64,000 bases of DNA, taken from contig NZ_CP132295.1 of assembly GCF_030734285.1 (NCBI RefSeq), positions 124,001 to 188,000 of the forward strand. Reading direction: 5' to 3'. Position 1 is the first letter of the stretch. Every line of letters begins with the position of its first letter. Of the stretch, positions 29,066-45,183 are shown in pieces. Below the pieces are notes generated by a model, which saw nothing but the letters and a program-made list of their open reading frames with translations, searched no databases and was not told the DNA's origin. A program made the position numbers and the translations under genes. The DNA comes from Natronococcus sp. AD-5. Lineage in GTDB: Archaea; Halobacteriota; Halobacteria; Halobacteriales; Natrialbaceae.

Positions 29066-29646
29066 ATTTATAGAATGAATCATTCAACACGAAGACCTCG
29101 AATATAAAATCCGGATGAATATCGTGGACTACACGGGTATGATTCCTATCTCGCGGAGGCAGAGCCGCTTCTTATCGGCCTCGCACAGGATGCGTAACCA
29201 TCTACTCTCTTCAATCATTCAGGTGCACCGGAGGATGCGCCGATCAAACTAAAAGACCGTCAATTCGAAACGTTATCAGAGTAGCTTCCGTTCCTAACTC
29301 GTACGTACTAGAGCTCTATACGTGGGAATGAAGAATAGACCGCGTTCGATGGTGCCATTCTGATTTCAGTTCATTCAAACTCTAAATTTCATTCGAATAT
29401 ATTACCATTCATTTTATGACTGTCTATAGACCAGAAACTGATATCGGCGATGTCGGTCGCTACACTCACTACCTCACTAAAGGCGGATTCCCAGTCGAAA
29501 TCGGGTCGTAAAATCTCGTATTCTTCTTCGGCAAACTCCTGAATGTCCGAAATTCTGCCTCACAGGGCGGAATCCATCTTGTTCCTATATCCTCATTACT
29601 CAAAGAAAGATTATAAAGGTTAGAACACTCTGTGTCAGATATCATT
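29066..29646. other. gene-poor gap before the PIN-fusion gene
   Basis: Nothing convincing in 580 bases. A 31-codon frame at 29416-29511 (MTVYRPETDIGDVGRY, THYLTKGGFPVEIG) and a short frame near 29148 (YDSYLAEAEPLLIGLAQDA) look like leftovers of genes. The last 30 bases are AT-rich and probably hold the next gene's promoter. Confidence 0.4.
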
Positions 29647-31143
29647 ATGGATGTTCTCGTAGACACGAATATTCTAATTCATCGGGAGAGCGACGATGTC
29701 GTTCCTGAGCCCCTCCGAGAATTAGAGCGATCGCTTAACGAGGAGGGCCATAGAAAACTTGTCCACCCGCTGTCCGTAAGAGAAATCCGGCAAGATCCAA
29801 ATGAGGAGCGACGAGAGAAGGCTGAGTCTAGAGTTGAGACGTATGTCCAACTCTCGTATCCTCCGACACCGAGTGGCAGTAATTCGCAATTCCGAGAAAT
29901 CATTCCAAAGGCGTCTAACTCTAACGATCAAGTAGATAATATGCTGCTCTTCGCAGTCTATGATGACGCCGTTGACTTTCTCATTACCGAAGATCGGGAA
30001 ATGCATCGAAAGGCACTAGAACTCGGGATCCAGGATCGCACCTTTACCATCGAAGAAGGTAAAGAGTACTTTGCAGAGGATCGCCCGCAAATTCGTGGCC
30101 CTATGGCAATTCATCGTACAACCTTTGGTGATCTTGATCTCGATGACCCGCTCTTTGATTCGCTCAAAGAGGAATATGAGGAATTCATCTCATGGGCACA
30201 ATCAAAGGGGGATCGCCCGGCGTGGGTTAATTATACCGAGGATGGATCACTCGGCGCGATTCTCATCTTGAAGCCACGCGAAACTGAAAACATAGGCACT
30301 GACCCACCACTCGGACGAGACACTCGTCTGAAGATATCGACACTAAAGGTCGGAGAGGCTCGCTGGGGATCGAAGGTAGGGGAGCTACTCATCTCTATCG
30401 CGATTCGAGAGACAATTAACTCAGAACTTGATCAGGTATATCTCACCCACTATATTCACGAAGAGGATTACCTTGTTGATCTCATTGAGTCGTATGGATT
30501 TGAACATGCCTCGAATAAGGATGATGGCGAAGCGATTTTTCTTAAGCGCCTCACACCGCCTATCGGTGCTGATCCGGATCCGCTCGAAATGGCGAGTCGA
30601 TACTATCCATCTTTCTACGATGGGCCGAATATCGAGAAGTTCATCGTTCCAATCCGACCTACGTATCACAACAAGCTCTTCACTAGTTACCAGAAACGCC
30701 AACCACCACTACATGAGTTTTCTGGAGAGTCCCACTCCGAGGGGAACGCTATCAGAAAAGCGTATCTTAGTAACTCTACAACTAGAAGGATTGACCCGGG
30801 TGATCTCCTTTTATTCTACCGGTCAGTAGATCACCAAGAAGTAACTTCACTTGGGATCTGTGAGCAGGTGGAATATGGATTAACTGATCCGGATGAAGTC
30901 TCTAGAATAGTTGGAAAGCGGTCCGTTTTCTCAGAACGAGAAGTTGAGGAGCTAGCAACATCACCTACGACGGTCTTACTATTCTCATGGCACTTCGACT
31001 TGCCGAATCCTATCTCGTATGAACGACTACGTGAAAACGACGTGTTAGCTGGCCCGCCGCAAGTCATGCAGAAACTGGATGAACAGGGTTATAGGTACAT
31101 ACAGGAACAAGGAAATATCGATGAACGCTTTGCTCGCCATTAA
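29647..31143 (+). CDS. PIN domain - GNAT-like - EVE/ASCH-like fusion protein
   Basis: 498 aa from ATG 29647 (GTG 29632 is possible). Residues 1-125 are a PIN nuclease domain: DVLVDTNILIHR with Asp6, HPLSVREIRQD, NDQVDNMLLFAVYD and DFLITEDREMHRKA provide the acidic cluster. Residues about 190-290 resemble a GNAT acetyltransferase (LKISTLKVGEARWGSKVGELL, QVYLTHYIHEEDYLVDLIES, YGFEH). The C-terminal 150 residues contain GDLLLFYRSVDHQEVTSLGI and a following strand/helix pattern like EVE or ASCH reader folds. The start of the ASCH gene lies inside the last 23 bases, so they are coupled. It may be a toxin, an RNA-modifying nuclease or a defence effector. Confidence 0.72.
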   Translation: MDVLVDTNILIHRESDDVVPEPLRELERSLNEEGHRKLVHPLSVREIRQDPNEERREKAESRVETYVQLSYPPTPSGSNSQFREIIPKASNSNDQVDNMLLFAVYDDAVDFLITEDREMHRKALELGIQDRTFTIEEGKEYFAEDRPQIRGPMAIHRTTFGDLDLDDPLFDSLKEEYEEFISWAQSKGDRPAWVNYTEDGSLGAILILKPRETENIGTDPPLGRDTRLKISTLKVGEARWGSKVGELLISIAIRETINSELDQVYLTHYIHEEDYLVDLIESYGFEHASNKDDGEAIFLKRLTPPIGADPDPLEMASRYYPSFYDGPNIEKFIVPIRPTYHNKLFTSYQKRQPPLHEFSGESHSEGNAIRKAYLSNSTTRRIDPGDLLLFYRSVDHQEVTSLGICEQVEYGLTDPDEVSRIVGKRSVFSEREVEELATSPTTVLLFSWHFDLPNPISYERLRENDVLAGPPQVMQKLDEQGYRYIQEQGNIDERFARH

Positions 31144-31866: not shown

Positions 31867-33855
31867 ATGGTCGAGAATTTCAACGAGAAGGCTGATTTTA
31901 TCTGGTCTATTGCAGACCTTCTCCGGGGAGACTACAAGCAGTCCGAGTATCAAAAAGTCATTCTACCGCTAACGGTCCTTCGTCGGCTCGACTGCGTGAC
32001 CGAGCCGAATAAAGAGAAAGTGCTCGAACGACACGAGCAGCTCCAAGAGCAAGGGATCGCGAACGTCGCGCCACTACTAAAGAAAGCGTCGGGAGAGAGG
32101 GTATACAACACTAGCGAGTACACGTTCGAGTCGCTATGCAACGATCCTGATCAGATCGCGAGCAATCTTCAGTACTATATCAACTCGTACGACGAGGAGA
32201 CGAAGGCAATCTTCGACAAGTTCGATTTCGATCACCAGATCCGACGCCTTGACGAGGCTGACCTTCTCTACAAGGTAGTCCGGCAATTCGCGGAGATCGA
32301 TCTTCATCCCGACGAAGTACCAAACGAAGAGATGGGGTATATCTATGAAGAGCTCATCCGGAAATTCAATGAACTCAGTAACGAGACCGCCGGGGAGCAC
32401 TTCACACCTCGCGAAGTAATCGAGCTGATGGTGAACCTCATCTTCGACGAGGACGACGAAGTGTTGACCGAGGAAGGCGCAGTCCGCACGGTCTACGACC
32501 CGGCCTGTGGGACCGGTGGGATGCTCAGCGTCGCAGAGGACCATGTCCGGAGATTCAACGAAGAAGCGAACCTCCACGTTTTCGGTCAGGAGCTGAACCC
32601 GGAGAGTTACGCCGTTTGCAATTCCGACATGCTGATCAAGGGCCAGGAACCCGAGAACATCGCCTACGGAAACTCCTTTACCGAAGATGGGTTCCCGAAT
32701 AAGAAGTTCGACTATATGTTGTCGAATCCTCCGTTCGGCGTCTCTTGGAAGAAAGTCAAGGACGAAATCGAGAGAGAACATGAAGAACAGGGGTTCGCCG
32801 GTCGATTTGGAGCGGGTACTCCACGTGTCAACGACGGGGCGTTCCTCTTCCTCCAGCACATGATCAGTAAGATGAAGCCCCCAGAGGAGGGGGGATCTCG
32901 GATTGCAATCGTGTTCAATGGATCGCCGCTGTTCAATGGCGGTCCGAATAGCGGTGAATCGGCAATTCGGCGATGGATTATTGAGAACGACTGGCTAGAG
33001 GGTATCGTCGGTCTACCTGAGAACCTATTCTATAACACGGGCATCCGAACGTACATCTGGGTGCTCTCAAATAATAAGCCCGAGCACCGTGAAGGCAAAG
33101 TCCAGCTCATCGATGCACGGGATCTGTACGAGGAGATGGACGAGAGCCTCGGCGACAAGCGCCACAGGCTTACTGAGGACCATATCAAGGAGATTACTCG
33201 TATCTTTGGCGACCTCGAAGCTAATGGACGGTCAAAAGTAGTCGATAACGAAGAATTCGGATATCGCCGTATCGTCATCGATCAACCGCTTCAACTCCGG
33301 TTCCAAGTTAGTGAAGAGCGTATCGACGATCTCGACGACGAACGGGCATTTTCGAATCGTGACGAGGAGGTTCAAGGGCGTATCAAAGAAGCACTTTCAG
33401 AGATGGACACGGAAAAGGTTTGGATGGACCGAGAGTCGTTCCTCAACGATGTCGAGCTTCAGTTGAACATGGCTGGGCTTGATGTTCGGGACAGCGTGTA
33501 CAACGCTATTGAGCGCGTAATGGGCGAGCGTGATCCGGACGCAGAAATCTGTCGTGATGGGAATGGGAACCCCGAACACGATAGTGATTTGCGTGAACGT
33601 GAACGAATACCTCTCGGAACAAATCCTCAAGAATATTTTGAGAAGGAGGTGTCTCCGTATTTAGAGAACGCCTGGGTTAATGAGAGTGGCAAATACCATG
33701 ATGAGAAAGACGGAAAGCTAGGAGTTGTAGGTTATGAAATCAACTTCGATAGGCATTTTTTCGAATATGAAGAACCACGATCTATTGACGCAATTGATAA
33801 GGAGATACAGAACTTGGAGAACGAGATGTCAGAATTAATTCAAAACATAGTATAA
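31867..33855 (+). CDS. hsdM: type I restriction-modification DNA methyltransferase subunit
   Basis: 662 aa. An HsdM N-terminal helical domain (IWSIADLLRGDYKQSEYQKV, LPLTVLRRLDC) precedes the N6-adenine methyltransferase core with the SAM motif DPACGTGGM (211-219) and the catalytic NPPFG (287-291). The stop overlaps the hsdS start by one base (TAATG). The last 85 codons are far richer in A/T than the rest and continue the composition of hsdS, so the C-terminus may have been exchanged together with the specificity subunit. The complex methylates adenine in the bipartite target chosen by HsdS. Confidence 0.95.
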   Translation: MVENFNEKADFIWSIADLLRGDYKQSEYQKVILPLTVLRRLDCVTEPNKEKVLERHEQLQEQGIANVAPLLKKASGERVYNTSEYTFESLCNDPDQIASNLQYYINSYDEETKAIFDKFDFDHQIRRLDEADLLYKVVRQFAEIDLHPDEVPNEEMGYIYEELIRKFNELSNETAGEHFTPREVIELMVNLIFDEDDEVLTEEGAVRTVYDPACGTGGMLSVAEDHVRRFNEEANLHVFGQELNPESYAVCNSDMLIKGQEPENIAYGNSFTEDGFPNKKFDYMLSNPPFGVSWKKVKDEIEREHEEQGFAGRFGAGTPRVNDGAFLFLQHMISKMKPPEEGGSRIAIVFNGSPLFNGGPNSGESAIRRWIIENDWLEGIVGLPENLFYNTGIRTYIWVLSNNKPEHREGKVQLIDARDLYEEMDESLGDKRHRLTEDHIKEITRIFGDLEANGRSKVVDNEEFGYRRIVIDQPLQLRFQVSEERIDDLDDERAFSNRDEEVQGRIKEALSEMDTEKVWMDRESFLNDVELQLNMAGLDVRDSVYNAIERVMGERDPDAEICRDGNGNPEHDSDLRERERIPLGTNPQEYFEKEVSPYLENAWVNESGKYHDEKDGKLGVVGYEINFDRHFFEYEEPRSIDAIDKEIQNLENEMSELIQNIV

Positions 33856-35216
33856 TGACTAGCAGGTACCAAGAAGAAATGGTTGAGTCTAGCGTGGACT
33901 GGATAGGTAAAATTCCAATCCATTGGGACACAGTTCGGATTCGGCTAGTTGCTAGACTGGAATCAGGCCATACTCCAAGTCGATCAGTTGATGAATACTG
34001 GGAAGGCTGTGATATCCCATGGGTCACTACATCGGACATCAAGAAATTTCGCTCATCTCATAAGATGTATCTCAAAGACACCGAAAATAAAATCAACGGA
34101 TTAGGTCTAGAAGATTCAGGGGCTCGTCTATTACCTGAGGGTACTGTGTTCTTATCAAGAACAGCATCCGTTGGTTTCTCTGGAATTATGGACAAGGAAA
34201 TGGCAACTTCTCAAGATTTCGCCAATTGGGTTTGTGGAGATCAAGTAGTCTCGGAATATTTGGTATATATTTTTCGTTCTATGGATCAGGAATTTTCACG
34301 CCTTATGCAAGGGTCAACCCATCAAACTATCTATATGCCTGATATTGAGTCCCTGCAAATGCCTCTTCCCCCAGTGGAAGAACAACAGAAGATCGCATCC
34401 TACCTGAATGATAATGTTAAGAAAATATACGATTTAATACAGAAGAAGGAAAGTTTGATGGATATTTTAGAGGAAAAGCAACAAGCCGTTATTACACAAA
34501 CAGTGACAGAAGGTGTTGATAGTGATTTAGGAATGGAAGATTCTGAAATAGAATGGTTGGATGAAGTTCCTATTCCTTGTGATGTGACCAAATTAAAATA
34601 TATTGTTCAAAGTGATACACCAGTATATGGTATTCTAAAACCAGGTCCTGAAGTTGAGGATGGTATTCCATATATCGGAGCAGGTGATATTGTCCAAGGG
34701 AGACTTTCTATTGACGAACTCCCAAGAACATCTCCTGAAATTGCGGAAGAATATCAACGCACAAAAATGAACTCAGGGGAGTTAGTCTATGCAATTAGAG
34801 GAAGTTACGGAGATGTAGAAGTCCTTCCAGAAGAGTTATCGGGTGTGAATCTGTCTCGTGATGCGGCGAGGATTTCACCTAAGGATAATATTGATTCAGA
34901 ATGGCTTTGTTGGGCCCTCAAATCAGAGATAGCACAACAACAAGTTGAACTTAGTGCTACTGGATCTGCGGTCAATGGCGTAAACATCGGCGACCTAAAA
35001 CAATTAATACTCCCAGTCCCGCCAATAAAAGAACAAAAAGAAATAGCAGCCTATCTCAATGATTTTGAATCTAAAATTTCTCAGTTAAGAGATGCTATTG
35101 AGGAGGAAATCACTCTCCTCCAGGAAAAGCGACAAGCTCTTATTTGGAAGACGGTCACCGGGAAAATCGATTTAGCAGAGTGGCAACAACATGACTCTAT
35201 AGATATTTCATTATGA
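33855..35216 (+). CDS. hsdS: type I restriction-modification specificity subunit
   Basis: 453 aa with the two-repeat architecture of HsdS: target-recognition domain 1 (about 10-175) beginning WIGKIPIHWDTVRI, conserved helix LPPVEEQQKIASYLNDNVKK (about 176-195), then domain 2 (about 230-395) beginning WLDEVPIPCDVTKL, and conserved helix VPPIKEQKEIAAYLND (about 395-410). Each TRD reads one half of the recognition site, which cannot be predicted here. The gene is much more AT-rich than hsdR and overlaps it by four bases (ATGA). Confidence 0.93.
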   Translation: MTSRYQEEMVESSVDWIGKIPIHWDTVRIRLVARLESGHTPSRSVDEYWEGCDIPWVTTSDIKKFRSSHKMYLKDTENKINGLGLEDSGARLLPEGTVFLSRTASVGFSGIMDKEMATSQDFANWVCGDQVVSEYLVYIFRSMDQEFSRLMQGSTHQTIYMPDIESLQMPLPPVEEQQKIASYLNDNVKKIYDLIQKKESLMDILEEKQQAVITQTVTEGVDSDLGMEDSEIEWLDEVPIPCDVTKLKYIVQSDTPVYGILKPGPEVEDGIPYIGAGDIVQGRLSIDELPRTSPEIAEEYQRTKMNSGELVYAIRGSYGDVEVLPEELSGVNLSRDAARISPKDNIDSEWLCWALKSEIAQQQVELSATGSAVNGVNIGDLKQLILPVPPIKEQKEIAAYLNDFESKISQLRDAIEEEITLLQEKRQALIWKTVTGKIDLAEWQQHDSIDISL

Positions 35217-38179
35217 GTAAGATCCACGACGAGGAAAGCTTTGAAAACTTCATCTCATCCCACCTCATAGAGTACAGTGGCTACGAGTATTTGTCGTCCG
35301 AGGAGTTCGACCGGGAGCGCGGGATCTTCCCCGATGTCGTCGTGTCCTTTGTTAAGGAGACGCAGCCGAAGAAGTGGGAAAAGCTCGAAACCGCATACAA
35401 GGGCAACGCACGGAAGCGCTTCCTGCAAGACCTCACAAGCGCGATGGAGGGACGAGGAACGCTGGAAATTCTCCGCCACGGCCTACGGACTACCGGAACG
35501 AAGATCGACCTCACGGCCTTCAAGCCGAACACTGGGTTGAACCCTGAAGTACAGGAACGGTACGAGGCAAACCGTCTGGGAGTCACACAGCAGTTCTATT
35601 ACTCGACGACCGATCCGAAGAAAAGCATCGACCTCGCGTTGAGCGTCAACGGAATTCCGGTGGCCACCGCGGAGTTGAAGAATAATTTCACTGACCAAAG
35701 TGTCATCGACGCAAAGGCCCAATATAAGTCCGACCGCGATCCCGGTGAACCTGCACTAAAGTTCAAGCGAGGCGCACTGGTGCACTTCGCCGTTGACCAG
35801 AACGAGGTCGAGTACACGACCGAATTAGACGGCGACGATACACACTTCCTCCCCTTTAATAAGGGCCACGACGGCGGAGCAGGGAACCCTCCACGAGAGG
35901 ATAGTCACCGGACTGCCTACCTCTGGGAAGAGGTCTGGGAGAAGGATAGCTGGATGGAGATCATTCAGCGCTTCATCGATATCGACGTAGAGGAGATTAA
36001 GAAAGACGGCATCAAGGTAGATGAGGAGGAGACGATGATTTTCCCGCGCTACCATCAGCTAGAGTGTGTCCGGCAGCTCGTAGAAAGCGCGCGGGAGAAC
36101 GGAGCCGGCGAAGACTACCTCATTCAGCACTCTACCGGGAGTGGGAAGAGTAAGTCCATTGCTTGGCTCGTCCATCGACTCGTCTCACTTCATAATGACG
36201 ACGATGAAGCGGTTTTCGATGGGGTCGTTGTCGTTACCGATCGAACGGTACTCGACGAACAGCTCCGGAATACGATCTACGAGCTCGATCATAAGACCGG
36301 TGTCGTCCACGGTATCAAGGGCGAACAGGGCTCGAAATCTGAGGAGCTCGCCGAGGCATTAGAGGCGGGTAAGCCGGTTATCATCACCACTCTTCAGACG
36401 TTCCCACACGTTATCGAACACACGCAGGGACTACCCGAGCGCGACTATGCGGTCGTGGTAGACGAGGCCCATAGTAGCCAGACCGGCGAGATGGCGAAAG
36501 AGATGAAACAGATTCTCGCAGGCCAAGATATCGATGAGGACGATGACTGGGAAGATCTCCTCGCAAAGAGCGCCGAAGCACGTGGCCAACAGGAGAATCT
36601 CAGTTTCTTCGCATTCACCGCGACACCGAAGGGGAAGACGCTCGAAGCGTTCGGTCACACTCCAGAAGATGGCGATAAGCCCGAACCGTTCCATCTCTAC
36701 TCGATGCGACAGGCTATCGAGGAGGGATTCATTCTCGACGTACTCCAGCACTACACGACCTACGATACCTTCTATAACGTCGCGAAGCTCATCGAGGAGG
36801 ATCCGCAGGTTCCACAGAAGAAGGCAGTCAAGGCCGTATCGCGCTTCTTAAAGCTTCATCCTCACAATATCTCTCAGAAGGTCGAGATCATCGTCGAGCA
36901 CTTCCGGAATCACACACAGCATAAGATCGGCGGAAAGGCAAAGGCGATGGTCGTTACGTCCTCGCGCGTCCACGCAGTTCGGTACAAGAAGGCGATCGAC
37001 GAGTACATCGACGAGAACGGGTACGATCTCAACTCGTTAGTCGCCTTTAGTGGGACCGTCGAAGACGATGGCTTCGAGTACACCGAACAGGAGATGAACG
37101 ATGGGATCAAAGAATCCGAGCTCCCGAGTAAGTTCAACACACCGGAATATCAGATCCTCGTCGTCGCCGATAAGTATCAGACGGGATTCGATCAGCCCCT
37201 CCTTCATACGATGTATGTCGATAAGAAGCTCTCCGGCATACAGGCTGTCCAGACCCTCTCTCGGCTAAACCGTACCCATCCGGGGAAGGACGATACGTTC
37301 GTGCTCGACTTCGAGAACGACAAGGAAGATATCTACGACGCGTTCCAGCCCTATTACGAGAAAACGACAGTCGAGGAGACGAGCGACCCACAACACATCT
37401 ACCAACTTGAATCAGAGCTCAATGCCTTCCAGATATATACACAGCAGGAGGTAGATCGGTTCGCGGAGGCGTTCTTTAGTCCGGAGAATAAGGGAACGGA
37501 GCAGGCCCACGCGAAGCTTAGTAGCCACATTCAGCCAGCACGCGATCGATTCATGGTCGCGAATGAGGAGACCCAGGACGAATTCCGATCGAAACTCCGC
37601 TCCTTCCTTCGCCTCTACAAATTCCAATCGCAGGTCGTCAACTACGCCGATACGACACTAGAGAAGCTCTACACGTTTGGTCGATTCCTCTACAAGGAAC
37701 TCCCAAGGGACTCGCAATCATCGCGAGTAGAGTTCAACGACGAACTCGCGCTTCAGTATTATCGGCTAGAAAAGGCGGAAGAGGGGGAAATCAAACTCAA
37801 TTCGAGTACCAGTGGAGTATCCATGCCGACGGAAACGGGTACCGGAAGTCAGGATGATGAAGAGGTAGAGCTCTCCACGATCGTCGATAAAATAAACGAA
37901 AAGCTAGGTACCGATTTCACGGAGGCCGACCAGCTCTTCCTCGATCAACTCAAAGAAGATGCGTTAGAAGACGACCATCTCCGTCGGTCGGCACAGGTAA
38001 ACAGTCGGGAGAACTTCGCGCTCGAGTTCGACGACGCTTTAACCGAGATGTTCATCGATCGAATGGACCAGAATCAGGAGCTCTTCGCTAAGTTCATGGA
38101 CAACGACGAGGTCCAAGAAGCGATCACTAAGCATCTGCGGCGGGCTGTCTACGAAGAAAGTCAAACCGCTGAGGCCTAA
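35213..38179 (+). CDS. hsdR: type I restriction-modification restriction subunit
   Basis: 988 aa. The N-terminal nuclease domain has the ELK motif (Glu154, Lys156) after SIDLALSVNG, the PD-(D/E)XK arrangement of HsdR. The SF2 translocase has Walker A STGSGKS (307-313), DEAH at 417-420, FTATPKG (motif III) and YQTGFDQPLL with SRLNRTHPG (motifs V and VI). A C-terminal helical region (from about 740) contacts the methyltransferase. The subunit translocates and cleaves unmodified DNA. All motifs look intact, so the three-gene system is probably functional. Confidence 0.95.
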   Translation: MSKIHDEESFENFISSHLIEYSGYEYLSSEEFDRERGIFPDVVVSFVKETQPKKWEKLETAYKGNARKRFLQDLTSAMEGRGTLEILRHGLRTTGTKIDLTAFKPNTGLNPEVQERYEANRLGVTQQFYYSTTDPKKSIDLALSVNGIPVATAELKNNFTDQSVIDAKAQYKSDRDPGEPALKFKRGALVHFAVDQNEVEYTTELDGDDTHFLPFNKGHDGGAGNPPREDSHRTAYLWEEVWEKDSWMEIIQRFIDIDVEEIKKDGIKVDEEETMIFPRYHQLECVRQLVESARENGAGEDYLIQHSTGSGKSKSIAWLVHRLVSLHNDDDEAVFDGVVVVTDRTVLDEQLRNTIYELDHKTGVVHGIKGEQGSKSEELAEALEAGKPVIITTLQTFPHVIEHTQGLPERDYAVVVDEAHSSQTGEMAKEMKQILAGQDIDEDDDWEDLLAKSAEARGQQENLSFFAFTATPKGKTLEAFGHTPEDGDKPEPFHLYSMRQAIEEGFILDVLQHYTTYDTFYNVAKLIEEDPQVPQKKAVKAVSRFLKLHPHNISQKVEIIVEHFRNHTQHKIGGKAKAMVVTSSRVHAVRYKKAIDEYIDENGYDLNSLVAFSGTVEDDGFEYTEQEMNDGIKESELPSKFNTPEYQILVVADKYQTGFDQPLLHTMYVDKKLSGIQAVQTLSRLNRTHPGKDDTFVLDFENDKEDIYDAFQPYYEKTTVEETSDPQHIYQLESELNAFQIYTQQEVDRFAEAFFSPENKGTEQAHAKLSSHIQPARDRFMVANEETQDEFRSKLRSFLRLYKFQSQVVNYADTTLEKLYTFGRFLYKELPRDSQSSRVEFNDELALQYYRLEKAEEGEIKLNSSTSGVSMPTETGTGSQDDEEVELSTIVDKINEKLGTDFTEADQLFLDQLKEDALEDDHLRRSAQVNSRENFALEFDDALTEMFIDRMDQNQELFAKFMDNDEVQEAITKHLRRAVYEESQTAEA

Positions 38180-38322: not shown

Positions 38323-38964
38323 ATGCCGAAGCTCCACAAATATGCCGCGTCTAATCCGAAAGATGGCTTCTACATCTACGCGCGGCACAATGGACAGAAC
38401 GTTACTTATCAAGTGACCGCTCTTGCGAGACGTATTTTCGATCGACTCGGCTATGGCGATAATACGGAAATCACCGGCGAGATGCTCTATACGCTTCACA
38501 GACTCCGCCTCATCTATACGAATAAGTCCGGTGTCGAGCCACCGACGTCGTTCGACGAAATTACTAACGAGGTAGACGATCCTTCCTCCGCAAAACCCGA
38601 TCGGGAGCGGTTCTTCCAGACGCTTCTCGACGAGGGGAGTCTCGATCAGGAGGAGCACGAGGATCTAACGCAGTATCTCGAATCACAGGATCTCGCTTCG
38701 ACAACCGAAGACGATACTTCGGGACCATCGCCGGCAGAAGAGTGGCGACCGACGGATCCCGAGGCGACGGACGTCTACCGTGGTACAGTCGACTTCTTCA
38801 ATGACACCGGTGGTTACGGCTTCATCGACTGTCCACTTCTCGAGGAGGACGTATTTTACCACATGGAGGATATCGGAGGGCGCGATATCCAGGAAGGCAC
38901 CTCGCTCGAGTTCGTTTGGAAAAAGCGGAAAAAGGACCGCGAGCGACGCATATTTGTCGGCTAG
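38323..38964 (+). CDS. protein with C-terminal cold-shock domain
   Basis: 213 aa. The N-terminal 90 residues (PKLHKYAASNPKDGFYIYAR, then TYQVTALARRIFDRLGYGDN) are an unrecognised, probably helical DNA- or RNA-binding module. An acidic linker follows, then a cold-shock domain from about 147: YRGTVDFFNDTGGYGFIDC, DVFYHMEDIGG, the RNP motifs of haloarchaeal CspA. A basic tail (KKRKKDRERR) ends it. The next gene, a tRNase-Z-like protein, follows closely. The cold-shock part suggests RNA binding. It starts 143 bases after hsdR, in the same direction. Confidence 0.78.
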   Translation: MPKLHKYAASNPKDGFYIYARHNGQNVTYQVTALARRIFDRLGYGDNTEITGEMLYTLHRLRLIYTNKSGVEPPTSFDEITNEVDDPSSAKPDRERFFQTLLDEGSLDQEEHEDLTQYLESQDLASTTEDDTSGPSPAEEWRPTDPEATDVYRGTVDFFNDTGGYGFIDCPLLEEDVFYHMEDIGGRDIQEGTSLEFVWKKRKKDRERRIFVG

Positions 38965-39068
38965 ATGATGAGACGATAACCGAGTACAAACGGACACTTT
39001 CAAGGAATCCACTCGAGGGACGACCACCACTCGAAGCGTTTCAAGAGGCAAGATCGTATAATGGAGAT

Positions 39069-40412
39069 GTGAATATCACCTTCCTCGGGACCGGTAGCCA
39101 TTGGGCCACCGAAGAGCGTGTACCGAATACCGTCATGATCAAACGGGACTCGGAATTATTCCTCTTCGATGTGGGTGAAGGTGCACACCGTCAAATGCAT
39201 ACTCATAGTACCGGCTTTGCCATTGACGCAATCTTTCTCACCGCAACAGAAACGGATCACATCGGCGGACTCGGACCACTTTTAAAGGCACTCTCGTTAC
39301 AGGGGCGCACGAAGCGACTCGACCTCTACGTTCCCGAGAAGGGGATCGACACGATTGAATCGCTCCTCGAACTCTACGGCGACTACGAGTTTTCTATCGA
39401 CGTAGAGCCGGTCGAGGAGGGCGTCGCGTACGAGGGCGACTTATACACCATCGAAGCGTTTCGGACCGATGCAGACGGCCGTCGGCGCGGCTACGTCGTA
39501 ACAGAACCGCCACGACGAGGTGCATTTAATCGTCCCCTCGCGGAAGAGCTCGGTGTCCTACCGGGTCCCGATTTCGGTCGGCTCTGTGATGGCGAAATAG
39601 TAACAACCGAAGATGGGCAGGAAATCGATCCACGATTAGTCGTCGGCGATCCGACGCCAGGACGAAAGCTCGTCTATACCGGCGATGTCGCGACTCCGGA
39701 GGAAATTCCAGAAGTAGCACGAGATGCCGATCTCCTCATTCATGAAGCGGCCTACCTCGATGGGCAGACCGATGTCTCCGATCATGCAACCGCGAAGGTC
39801 GCCGGCGAAATAGCGCAGAAGGCAGGGGTAGATGAGCTCGTCCTTACAAATATCGCGCCGATATCCGAGATGTGGACGAGTCAGCTCGAGAAGCAAGCAG
39901 CGACGAAATTCGATGGCGAGATTCAACTCGCAACCGATGGGGCCTCGCTGAGTCTACCCGCTCCGGAATCACCGGATCCGCCGGTAGTAGGTTCGACTAT
40001 TGATTACGGGGATTCAGTAGGTCCATCCGATCTTCAGGAAGGAATGTATATTCGGCTAACCGTCGATCGGGACAAAAGCTCGGGCGAGGGGCTTTCCAAA
40101 AATGCCTCAGTTCATATCCAAGATGGCGGAAATAATGTCAATGAGGAAACAACAGTAAAAGTAGTGTCCGAGGAAGCGGGCTATGTGAAAGCCGAGATCG
40201 AAACCCCTCCGCCCGGCGAGACGGTACATCCATTCAACCCTACGTCATCCGAATCGAGTAAATCAAAGCGACGCTCCTCACGGTCACGAAAAGGTTCCTC
40301 AACCAAATCACAGAAGAGGTCATCGAATCAAAAGCGCATTCAAAGCGGATCGAATCCATTCAAAAGTGGGAGTTCAGAGCATCTCCGTAACTTAGTCCGA
40401 AAAAAGCAGTGA
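39069..40412 (+). CDS. tRNase-Z-like metallo-beta-lactamase protein with lost metal ligands and TRAM-like tail
   Basis: 447 aa from GTG 39069; a TTG at 38916 would overlap the cold-shock gene. The fold reads as RNase Z: NITFLGTGSHW, LFLFDVGEGAHRQM, GRKLVYTGDVATP, LLIHEAAYLDG, SDHATAK. The canonical HxHxDH is AxExDH (ATETDH, codons 39243-39260), and the LTH motif is LTN (Asn at 39849), so three His ligands are missing while Asp, the remaining His residues and the lactamase scaffold are kept. Residues about 320-385 look TRAM-like (GPSDLQEGMYIRLTVDRD), followed by a Ser/Lys/Arg-rich tail. It may bind RNA without cutting, or use another chemistry. Confidence 0.75.
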   Translation: MNITFLGTGSHWATEERVPNTVMIKRDSELFLFDVGEGAHRQMHTHSTGFAIDAIFLTATETDHIGGLGPLLKALSLQGRTKRLDLYVPEKGIDTIESLLELYGDYEFSIDVEPVEEGVAYEGDLYTIEAFRTDADGRRRGYVVTEPPRRGAFNRPLAEELGVLPGPDFGRLCDGEIVTTEDGQEIDPRLVVGDPTPGRKLVYTGDVATPEEIPEVARDADLLIHEAAYLDGQTDVSDHATAKVAGEIAQKAGVDELVLTNIAPISEMWTSQLEKQAATKFDGEIQLATDGASLSLPAPESPDPPVVGSTIDYGDSVGPSDLQEGMYIRLTVDRDKSSGEGLSKNASVHIQDGGNNVNEETTVKVVSEEAGYVKAEIETPPPGETVHPFNPTSSESSKSKRRSSRSRKGSSTKSQKRSSNQKRIQSGSNPFKSGSSEHLRNLVRKKQ

Positions 40413-40460
40413 ACTCTTCGGGGATAATGAATAAGCATATTGAAAATAGAGTGGACTGTA

Positions 40461-40877
40461 ATGGCCGCCTCGAAAGTCTTCACGCAGACACAGCCAACAT
40501 CCCATGAACTCGCACAAGTAATTACGGCGCTCGACGAAACACAGCCCGAGCTCTACCACGTGCAATGGGAGAGCGAGGATCGAAATCACAATACTACGTA
40601 TGATGTCGAGGAGTTTCGGTTCGGGAATGGACCGAAGATTAAAATTCGGGGGCAGATCGAACGGGCGGGTGGACGAGCAGAGTATCTTATCGATTCGAAT
40701 CCATCGGGTCAACCGCAGGTCGTGCATCTCCGGAAAGACGGCTATCAGGATCGAAGTCGCCTCGTCGAGATTCGCATTCTCTCGGACGATGTTCATTGGC
40801 GGCATAAGCTACAGTATGTGAGCGACGAGATCCGACAGAAGTTGAATTTCCCGACACCCGGACTTGAACGGTCGTAG
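40461..40877 (+). CDS. unrecognised 138-aa protein downstream of the tRNase-Z-like gene
   Basis: 138 aa from ATG 40461. Sequence pieces: TQPTSHELAQVITALDE, QPELYHVQWESEDRN, DRSRLVEIRILSDDVHWRH, KLQYVSDEIRQKL. It appears alpha/beta with no motif I know. It follows the tRNase-Z-like gene by about 50 bases in the same direction and could be the third member of that group. Confidence 0.6.
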   Translation: MAASKVFTQTQPTSHELAQVITALDETQPELYHVQWESEDRNHNTTYDVEEFRFGNGPKIKIRGQIERAGGRAEYLIDSNPSGQPQVVHLRKDGYQDRSRLVEIRILSDDVHWRHKLQYVSDEIRQKLNFPTPGLERS

Positions 40878-44143: not shown

Positions 44144-44611
44144 TTACGGGTAAGAGGAACGCGATGATGTCCAAAATCCTTCCTGCCGAGCTTCGATTTC
44201 CTGGAGTACCATCGAGAGGACGTCGCGCCAATCCGGGGCATGTGATGCATCGTCGCCGGGCGTTGGTGCATCGGGCCCAGGATGAACGTGATCACGCGTA
44301 TTGTGATCCGAAGGGTGTCGATCCCACCGGTGATCGAACATTCCCTCATCGTGCTCTTCGTGGTAGTGGAGCGAGAAGTCCCCGTTCTCGAACCACACGA
44401 TCTCCAGGCGGGCCGTCTGAACACTACTCGGATAGAAGCGAAGATCATAGACACACACCAATCGATCCGGTGCGAACTCTGGTTGCGCTTCGATCTGATC
44501 GAATCGATCGTCAGTAGACAGGCGGCTCGCGATGACGTCGAGCCGATCAAAATCAACCGGCGCACCGCCGATGTCGTCAGGCGTTTCTGTTCCGTCGCTC
44601 CCGTCGGTCAT
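44144..44611 (-). CDS. TumE/DUF6516-like protein, possible toxin
   Basis: 155 aa. The central motif HYHEEHDEGMFDHRWDRHPS, then DHNTRDHVHP matches the pattern of TumE-like (DUF6516) proteins, a YH motif, RWD and a final H-x-H. It follows with four bases of overlap the winged-helix gene on the same strand, an arrangement shared with TumE/TumA-type pairs. Catalytic chemistry is not known to me. Confidence 0.65.
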   Translation of the reverse strand: MTDGSDGTETPDDIGGAPVDFDRLDVIASRLSTDDRFDQIEAQPEFAPDRLVCVYDLRFYPSSVQTARLEIVWFENGDFSLHYHEEHDEGMFDHRWDRHPSDHNTRDHVHPGPDAPTPGDDASHAPDWRDVLSMVLQEIEARQEGFWTSSRSSYP

Positions 44612-45183
44612 ACGGCAGTCCGTTGATCTGCGGAATCATCAGAGCCGGTCGTCAACGCCCGCTCGAGGAGGGCGATCCGACGGCGAGTCGTCTTCCAGGT
44701 GGAAACGTCTTCCCACACTGCTTCCACCGAGCGGTCGGTCTCGGATGCGTGTGCAGCGATCGAAACCGCATCCGGTGAGTCGACGTCAAACGTCTCGGCG
44801 TAGGTCTCGTTACGCTCCGTCTCATCCTTCAGGAAGTCAAGGAGCCTCTCGGTCGCGTACTGCTCCCGGAGTTGCTGGACGCGACGCCAGTTCAGGTACT
44901 CCTGGTTTCGCCTGTACGTCGCCGGCGACTCGGTGACCTGCGTGACAATCCCCATTCGGTCGAACCACTCAAGGTATTCCCTCGCAGCATCCACCCCGTG
45001 GCCAGCGAGATCAGCAACTTCACCTGCGGTGGCTGGACTATCCAGCGCGAGGACTGCGTCGAAGAAATCGTCGCGTGTGCGGTCACCGCGAACGAGCTCT
45101 TCGGGTGGCGTCAGCGCGTCGAAATCCGGTGATTCGGCGCGCTCGTCGGTGTCCGCCTTCAGTCCTGGATCCGGTTCTTCCAT
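44608..45183 (-). CDS. winged-helix protein paired with the TumE-like gene, possible antitoxin
   Basis: 191 aa. Central winged helix about residues 45-85 (VLALDSPATAGEVADLAGHG, DAAREYLEWFDRMGIV). The second half is helical, rich in Glu and Arg. Its stop overlaps the TumE-like start (ATGA). The HTH would allow operon autoregulation. It is also similar in layout to haloarchaeal DUF7342 proteins. Confidence 0.7.
   Translation of the reverse strand: MEEPDPGLKADTDERAESPDFDALTPPEELVRGDRTRDDFFDAVLALDSPATAGEVADLAGHGVDAAREYLEWFDRMGIVTQVTESPATYRRNQEYLNWRRVQQLREQYATERLLDFLKDETERNETYAETFDVDSPDAVSIAAHASETDRSVEAVWEDVSTWKTTRRRIALLERALTTGSDDSADQRTAV

Follow-up and report, generated by a model that had tools for sequence, protein, structure and literature searches.

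A tRNase Z-derived protein that has lost four metal-ligand histidines is encoded by a split multidomain gene next to haloarchaeal restriction genes

INTRODUCTION

Downstream from the type I restriction-modification genes of a haloarchaeon lies an open reading frame with the scaffold of tRNase Z and an altered metal-binding site, which raises the question of what such a protein could do in a region of defense genes, and which of the neighboring genes belong with it. The locus is located in the window, which is the 64,000-nt stretch of DNA analyzed here (G000:C2:124001-188000), on the smaller of the two contigs of a 5.17-Mb genome. An earlier note, made from the sequence alone, described a cold-shock gene, a tRNase Z-like gene and a gene without assignment, all pointing in one direction after hsdR in a defense island, and proposed a non-cleaving or re-tooled RNA-binding complex, possibly representing a new conflict system.

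The arrangement agrees with this description, because the three open reading frames (38323-38964, 38916-40412, and 40440-40877) are all on the plus strand 3′ of hsdR (35213-38179), with 143 bases between the end of hsdR and the first of them. The designation of the region as a defense island is also well founded, since a complete type I system composed of hsdM, hsdS, and hsdR (31867-38179, plus strand) is the upstream neighbor, and a candidate defense gene adjoins. This 503-aa gene (29632-31143), which is located further upstream on the same strand, is covered from end to end by a match to the PADLOC candidate defense family PDC-M11A (E=2e-158), and it also gave weak PIN and EVE matches. Its end is overlapped by a short open reading frame, also upstream and on the same strand, which has a sub-threshold match to ASCH.

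RESULTS

Two open reading frames of the window are the halves of one gene

Class-wide searches with each of the first two frames led to a common locus in one further genome (G250:C7). There, both halves lie in one uninterrupted frame of 703 codons, which encodes a protein of 697 aa. The order of regions in this protein is an N-terminal domain (residues 1-125), a cold-shock domain (153-212), a tRNase Z-like domain (254-555), a TRAM-like region, and a basic tail. Because one frame of G250 covers both window frames, these frames are the halves of one protein. Hence, by sequence comparison, the cold-shock part and the tRNase Z part form one polypeptide, and positions 38323-40412 are one gene with a single frame offset in this assembly.

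The frame crossing is located approximately at 38911-38934 (plus strand), where the cold-shock frame diverges, and where the fused G250 protein has overlapping matches in two frames. The cold-shock frame of the window has unrelated residues at its end, and the last strand of the domain is cut off, while the next frame holds the sequence KAEKGPRATH, which corresponds to TAEKGPRATH of G250, the last strand of its cold-shock domain. This second frame (38916-40412, plus strand; 498 aa) contains the end of the cold-shock domain, the tRNase Z-like domain, the TRAM-like region and the tail, and past the crossing it is open to the end, with no further stop in ~495 codons and with coding-like GC content by codon position. 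The offset may be real, it may be a sequencing error, or it may be bridged in translation, although no downstream RNA structure that would favor programmed frameshifting was found (z = 0.08). The full-length protein product of the split window copy could be absent.

The fused gene was not found in the eight other genomes of the genus, which is expected of an acquired accessory gene. Pattern scans of genome and viral contig collections gave no relatives, and the plasmid and phage collections contained no further fused protein; the members of the pseudo-tRNase Z fusion found are therefore two only, those of the window and of G250. Haloarchaeal plasmids were seen to carry extra intact, ordinary rnz genes (L187:5148-6071 and L188:4995-5924), in both cases with macro-domain and aCPSF1 genes nearby.

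The tRNase Z-like domain has lost four ligand histidines

The tRNase Z scaffold recognized in the earlier note is well supported. The domain (39069-39968, plus strand) matched the NCBIfam model TIGR02651 over residues 53-343 of the frame (204.8 bits, E=1.5e-60) and Bacillus subtilis RNase Z (1y44; E=3.4e-34), and RNase Z proteins are its best solved relatives. For the G250 protein, the structure prediction was likewise closest to tRNA-bound RNase Z (4gcw and 2fk6), while the full-length model had a mean pLDDT of 63.7 and was weak outside the tRNase Z part. The scores of the window (204.8 bits) and of G250 (224.8 bits) are below the TIGR02651 equivalog cut-off of 292.95 bits, while the housekeeping copy, at 342 bits, is above it. 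This copy, a second tRNase Z of the genome (C1 3357343-3358257) of the kind that the earlier note had thought worth looking for, is standard and contains every ligand.

Motif II (39243-39260, plus strand), which is HxHxDH in the intact enzymes, reads ATETDH in the window (in the context TATETDH, with A110, E112, D114, and H115 of the 498-aa frame) and SVAIDH in G250. The ligand histidine of motif III (39471-39473, plus strand; H140 in B. subtilis) is replaced by alanine (A186) in the window and by serine in G250, and that of motif V (39849-39851, plus strand; H269) is replaced by asparagine in both proteins, so that LTH reads LTN (N312) in the window. The equivalents of B. subtilis H63, H65, H140, and H269 in the window are A, E, A, and N, and the equivalents of D67, H68, E208, D211, and H247 are kept in both proteins, with D257, E277, and H290 among the retained residues in the numbering of the 498-aa frame. 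The data confirmed the AxExDH and LTN readings of the earlier note, to which the loss in motif III is an addition. No other alignment gave an intact metal site, which the note had named as a possible refutation; the losses were the same with BLAST, MAFFT, and phmmer.

The window and G250 proteins are ~40% identical in the tRNase Z part, and the same four histidines are lost in both. Since the losses recur in an independent homologue, their pattern is not due to chance, and since the G250 protein is unbroken, they do not reflect decay of the window copy. Hence, the alignments indicate that the ligand loss is old and is shared by two divergent homologues. Motifs II and V were intact in all of the 28 other rnz loci and further copies that were compared, and among the copies whose motifs were inspected only the window and G250 have non-canonical ones. 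In a phylogenetic tree these two form a clade outside the housekeeping rnz with support of 99/96, though the long branches weaken the tree. The region corresponding to the flexible arm that grips tRNA (39489-39674, plus strand) aligned without gaps to 1y44, and the GP motif is present in the window but not in G250.

Accessory domains and the downstream gene

The cold-shock domain (PF00313; 38779-38937, plus strand), which is cut short in its frame and has its last strand in the other one, scored 38.4 bits in the window and 49.1 bits in G250, where the match runs through the last strand, compared to a gathering cut-off of 27. The earlier proposal of a cold-shock domain therefore holds for the domain itself, but not for a separate upstream gene. 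The TRAM-like region (39969-40226, plus strand) aligned with G250 and resembles the C-terminus of a G281 protein. The assignment is plausible but weak, because the Pfam TRAM model (PF01938) had no match in the window or in G250, and reached only 18.9 bits in G281, below the cut-off of 21. The basic tail (40227-40409, plus strand) was correctly recognized before; its net charge is +15, and that of the G250 tail is +21, compared to −28 for the housekeeping enzyme.

The adjacent downstream gene (40440-40877, plus strand; 145 aa) has homologues in 12 other haloarchaea, and in none of these genomes is the cold-shock/tRNase Z pair, or either partner, nearby. For this reason the gene is not counted as a component, and the three-gene operon or complex, for which co-occurrence elsewhere had been suggested as a check, is ruled out. 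Some further genes were noted around relatives of this gene. Two overlapping genes at 44144-45183 (minus strand) of the window have likely homologues ~2-3 kb from a relative of the 145-aa gene in G068 (L022:11388-12430). Homologous proteins of ~456 aa, which appear GIY-YIG-like by eye, are encoded at L095:6678-8048 and L026:13456-14823, the L095 copy having no Pfam match; one gene of this kind adjoins the fused gene of G250, and in G375 one is located a few kilobases from a relative of the 145-aa gene.

The N-terminal domain belongs to a family found near defense genes

The first ~125 aa of the fused protein (38323-38697, plus strand) form a new domain, which has no Pfam family and is common to the window, G250, G281, and G033. 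A four-row HMM detected the domain in 44 of 391 haloarchaeal genomes (about one in nine), while a 17-row HMM, applied to 197 genomes sampled from the phylum, had matches only in the window's own order. The AlphaFold model is a confident small fold (pLDDT 87.8), for which Foldseek and VIA-align found no convincing match among solved structures, although a new fold is not thereby proven. The N-terminal domain is followed by diverse C-terminal parts, which are a cold-shock domain with a TRAM-like region (G281), with a macro domain (G180; L137:8986-10794), or with a weak zinc finger (G183), a ribbon–helix–helix domain (G040), and the pseudo-tRNase Z (window and G250), while others are unassigned.

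Near the N-terminal domain, 206 PADLOC families were matched at 20 loci, compared to 16 at 20 control loci from mostly the same genomes; these are counts of models and not of proteins, which inflates the ratio, but the direction is clear. As judged by shared sequence clusters rather than by names, type I restriction-modification genes are near the domain in L138, L143, L151, L155, and the window, and McrB-like genes in L095, L104, and L148. The family of a large protein also recurs near the N-domain genes (L097:10520-13081, L142:10841-13273, L147:5117-7510, and L153:10479-12851), and its L097 member appears by eye to have a metallo-beta-lactamase-like fold with an HxHxDH motif.

The neighborhood of the fused gene itself is similar in its two occurrences. 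In G250 it is located directly downstream from an McrB-like gene (MrcB_N and AAA_5 domains) and a PD-(D/E)XK McrC-like gene, and hence restriction genes are directly upstream in two of two cases, hsdMSR in the window and McrBC in G250. This adjacency is suggestive, but it is not proof of a functional link.

DISCUSSION

The fused protein may be a non-cleaving, RNA-binding accessory of restriction loci, encoded by one multidomain gene that is split in the window; taken as a whole, we consider this reading evenly balanced between right and wrong. Its parts differ in strength. The loss of ligands makes it likely that the tRNase Z-derived domain does not cleave, and the domain composition suggests that the protein probably binds tRNA or other RNA. 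A role in defense, to which the location points, is slightly favored, while the sensing or guarding of a restriction system is improbable. In such an accessory protein, the OB folds and the retained arm of the tRNase Z domain would grasp tRNA or some other structured RNA, with additional affinity for RNA from the basic tail. The N-terminal domain could serve as the common attachment, tying the protein to the defense locus, type I in the window and McrBC in G250, where the protein would act as a sensor or adaptor. The flexible arm of tRNase Z is known to grip the tRNA elbow (PMC3714273). Alteration of a metal ligand need not prevent an RNase Z from binding tRNA in a crystal, since the sequence of 2fk6 has alanine at one motif II histidine. 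Thus, the degenerate tRNase Z, the RNA-binding accessory domains and the probable lack of cleavage remain of the complex proposed in the earlier note, while its three-gene composition does not, and the new conflict system is possible on the basis of location and architecture. The support for the preferred reading is limited by the two known members, the split window copy, the part of the metal site that is retained, and the long tree branches.

The strongest of the other explanations, although it is still rather unlikely, is decay of the window copy into a pseudogene: the gene would have been acquired and then broken by the frame offset, and would no longer work. The offset itself, the missing last strand in the cold-shock frame, the occurrence of a single copy in the genus, and the lack of an RNA structure for programmed frameshifting are consistent with decay, but the long open frame with its coding-like composition is not, the offset is at a single homopolymer-rich site that could be a sequencing error, and the ligand loss is common to the unbroken G250 protein. 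It is less probable, although not by much, that the protein is an ordinary RNA chaperone or regulator located in a defense island by chance. Among the RNA binders of haloarchaea, cold-shock and TRAM-like domains are common, and proteins with the N-terminal domain also carry ribbon–helix–helix or zinc-finger domains, but the patchy spread of the N-terminal domain (44 of 391 genomes, with the fusion in 2) and its defense-rich neighborhoods argue against such a role.

The retained part of the metal site makes an altered one-metal enzyme conceivable. In this case the remaining Asp, His, Asp, and Glu/His residues would coordinate one metal only, or a different one, and hydrolyze another phosphodiester, in a nucleotide, an AMP-protein or RNA. 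The conservation of the D67, H68, D211, E208, and H247 equivalents in both proteins, together with the shared replacement of the distal histidine by asparagine, fits this explanation, as does the fact that RNase Z has deAMPylation as a second activity (PMC12663964). However, one metal site has lost three of its four ligands, and mutation of HxHxDH is reported to have abolished both known activities of RNase Z (PMC12663964), which makes such a re-tooled enzyme quite unlikely. Equally doubtful is a PrrC-like guard, which would be silenced by the restriction enzyme, or watch it, and, once restriction is blocked, would act through tRNA to stop translation; among the versions of the restriction-accessory model, it is the most specific and the least supported. 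The adjacency to type I and McrBC genes and the precedent of PrrC (PMC3874165) are in its favor, but Pfam, NCBIfam, and PADLOC found no nuclease domain, there are two cases only, and the link to Hsd or Mcr subunits is putative.

If the non-cleaving accessory reading is true, a tRNA-processing enzyme of archaea has become a binder that no longer cleaves and has been added to restriction loci. To our knowledge, no prokaryotic counterpart of the inactive tRNase Z domain in eukaryotic ELAC2 has been described. The wider N-domain family is possibly a more valuable lead than the fused protein, and through it antiviral systems of archaea might become accessible. Its members could be modular defense adaptors of haloarchaea, in which the N-terminal domain docks and the cold-shock, macro, zinc-finger, ribbon–helix–helix, and pseudo-tRNase Z parts are swappable sensors, the last sensing tRNA that either triggers a response linked to restriction or is its target; this is a speculative proposal, which we regard as unlikely.

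Among known systems, the fused protein resembles the short form of tRNase Z (TIGR02651; 1y44, 2fk6, and 4gcw) in its fold, its ~40% identity to haloarchaeal copies, the arm region, and the D211- and H247-type motifs, but it differs in the loss of four ligand histidines, in the score below the equivalog cut-off, and in the fused N-terminal, cold-shock, TRAM-like, and tail regions. A natural parallel is the N-domain of eukaryotic tRNase ZL (ELAC2), which also derives from tRNase Z and retains the arm but no longer the metal ligands (PMC3714273; PMC12663964); ELAC2, however, joins this domain covalently to an active tRNase Z, while the fused protein has no active domain and its partners are OB folds. 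With type V retron effectors it shares a cold-shock domain in a defense-island protein, and PADLOC CSD_V was a weak best match (E=5.7e-6 for the window and E=9.4e-10 for G250), but the architecture is different, and the model of the retron Se72 effector (NF038236) scored 22.5 in the window and 36.7 in G250 against an 82-bit cut-off. The PrrC anticodon nuclease of EcoprrI, a tRNA nuclease held silent by the type I enzyme (PMC3874165), is similar as a possible tRNA-directed accessory beside type I genes, but since the fused protein has no detected nuclease domain, the comparison is one of how they may work. The anti-Pycsar protein Apyc1 shares the metallo-beta-lactamase fold, with a weak match over 75 residues, but its 18.9 bits are far under the 50-bit cut-off, and the tRNase Z models fit much better. 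In terms of its domains, the fused protein joins a new N-terminal domain of haloarchaea to OB folds and a pseudoenzyme derived from tRNase Z.
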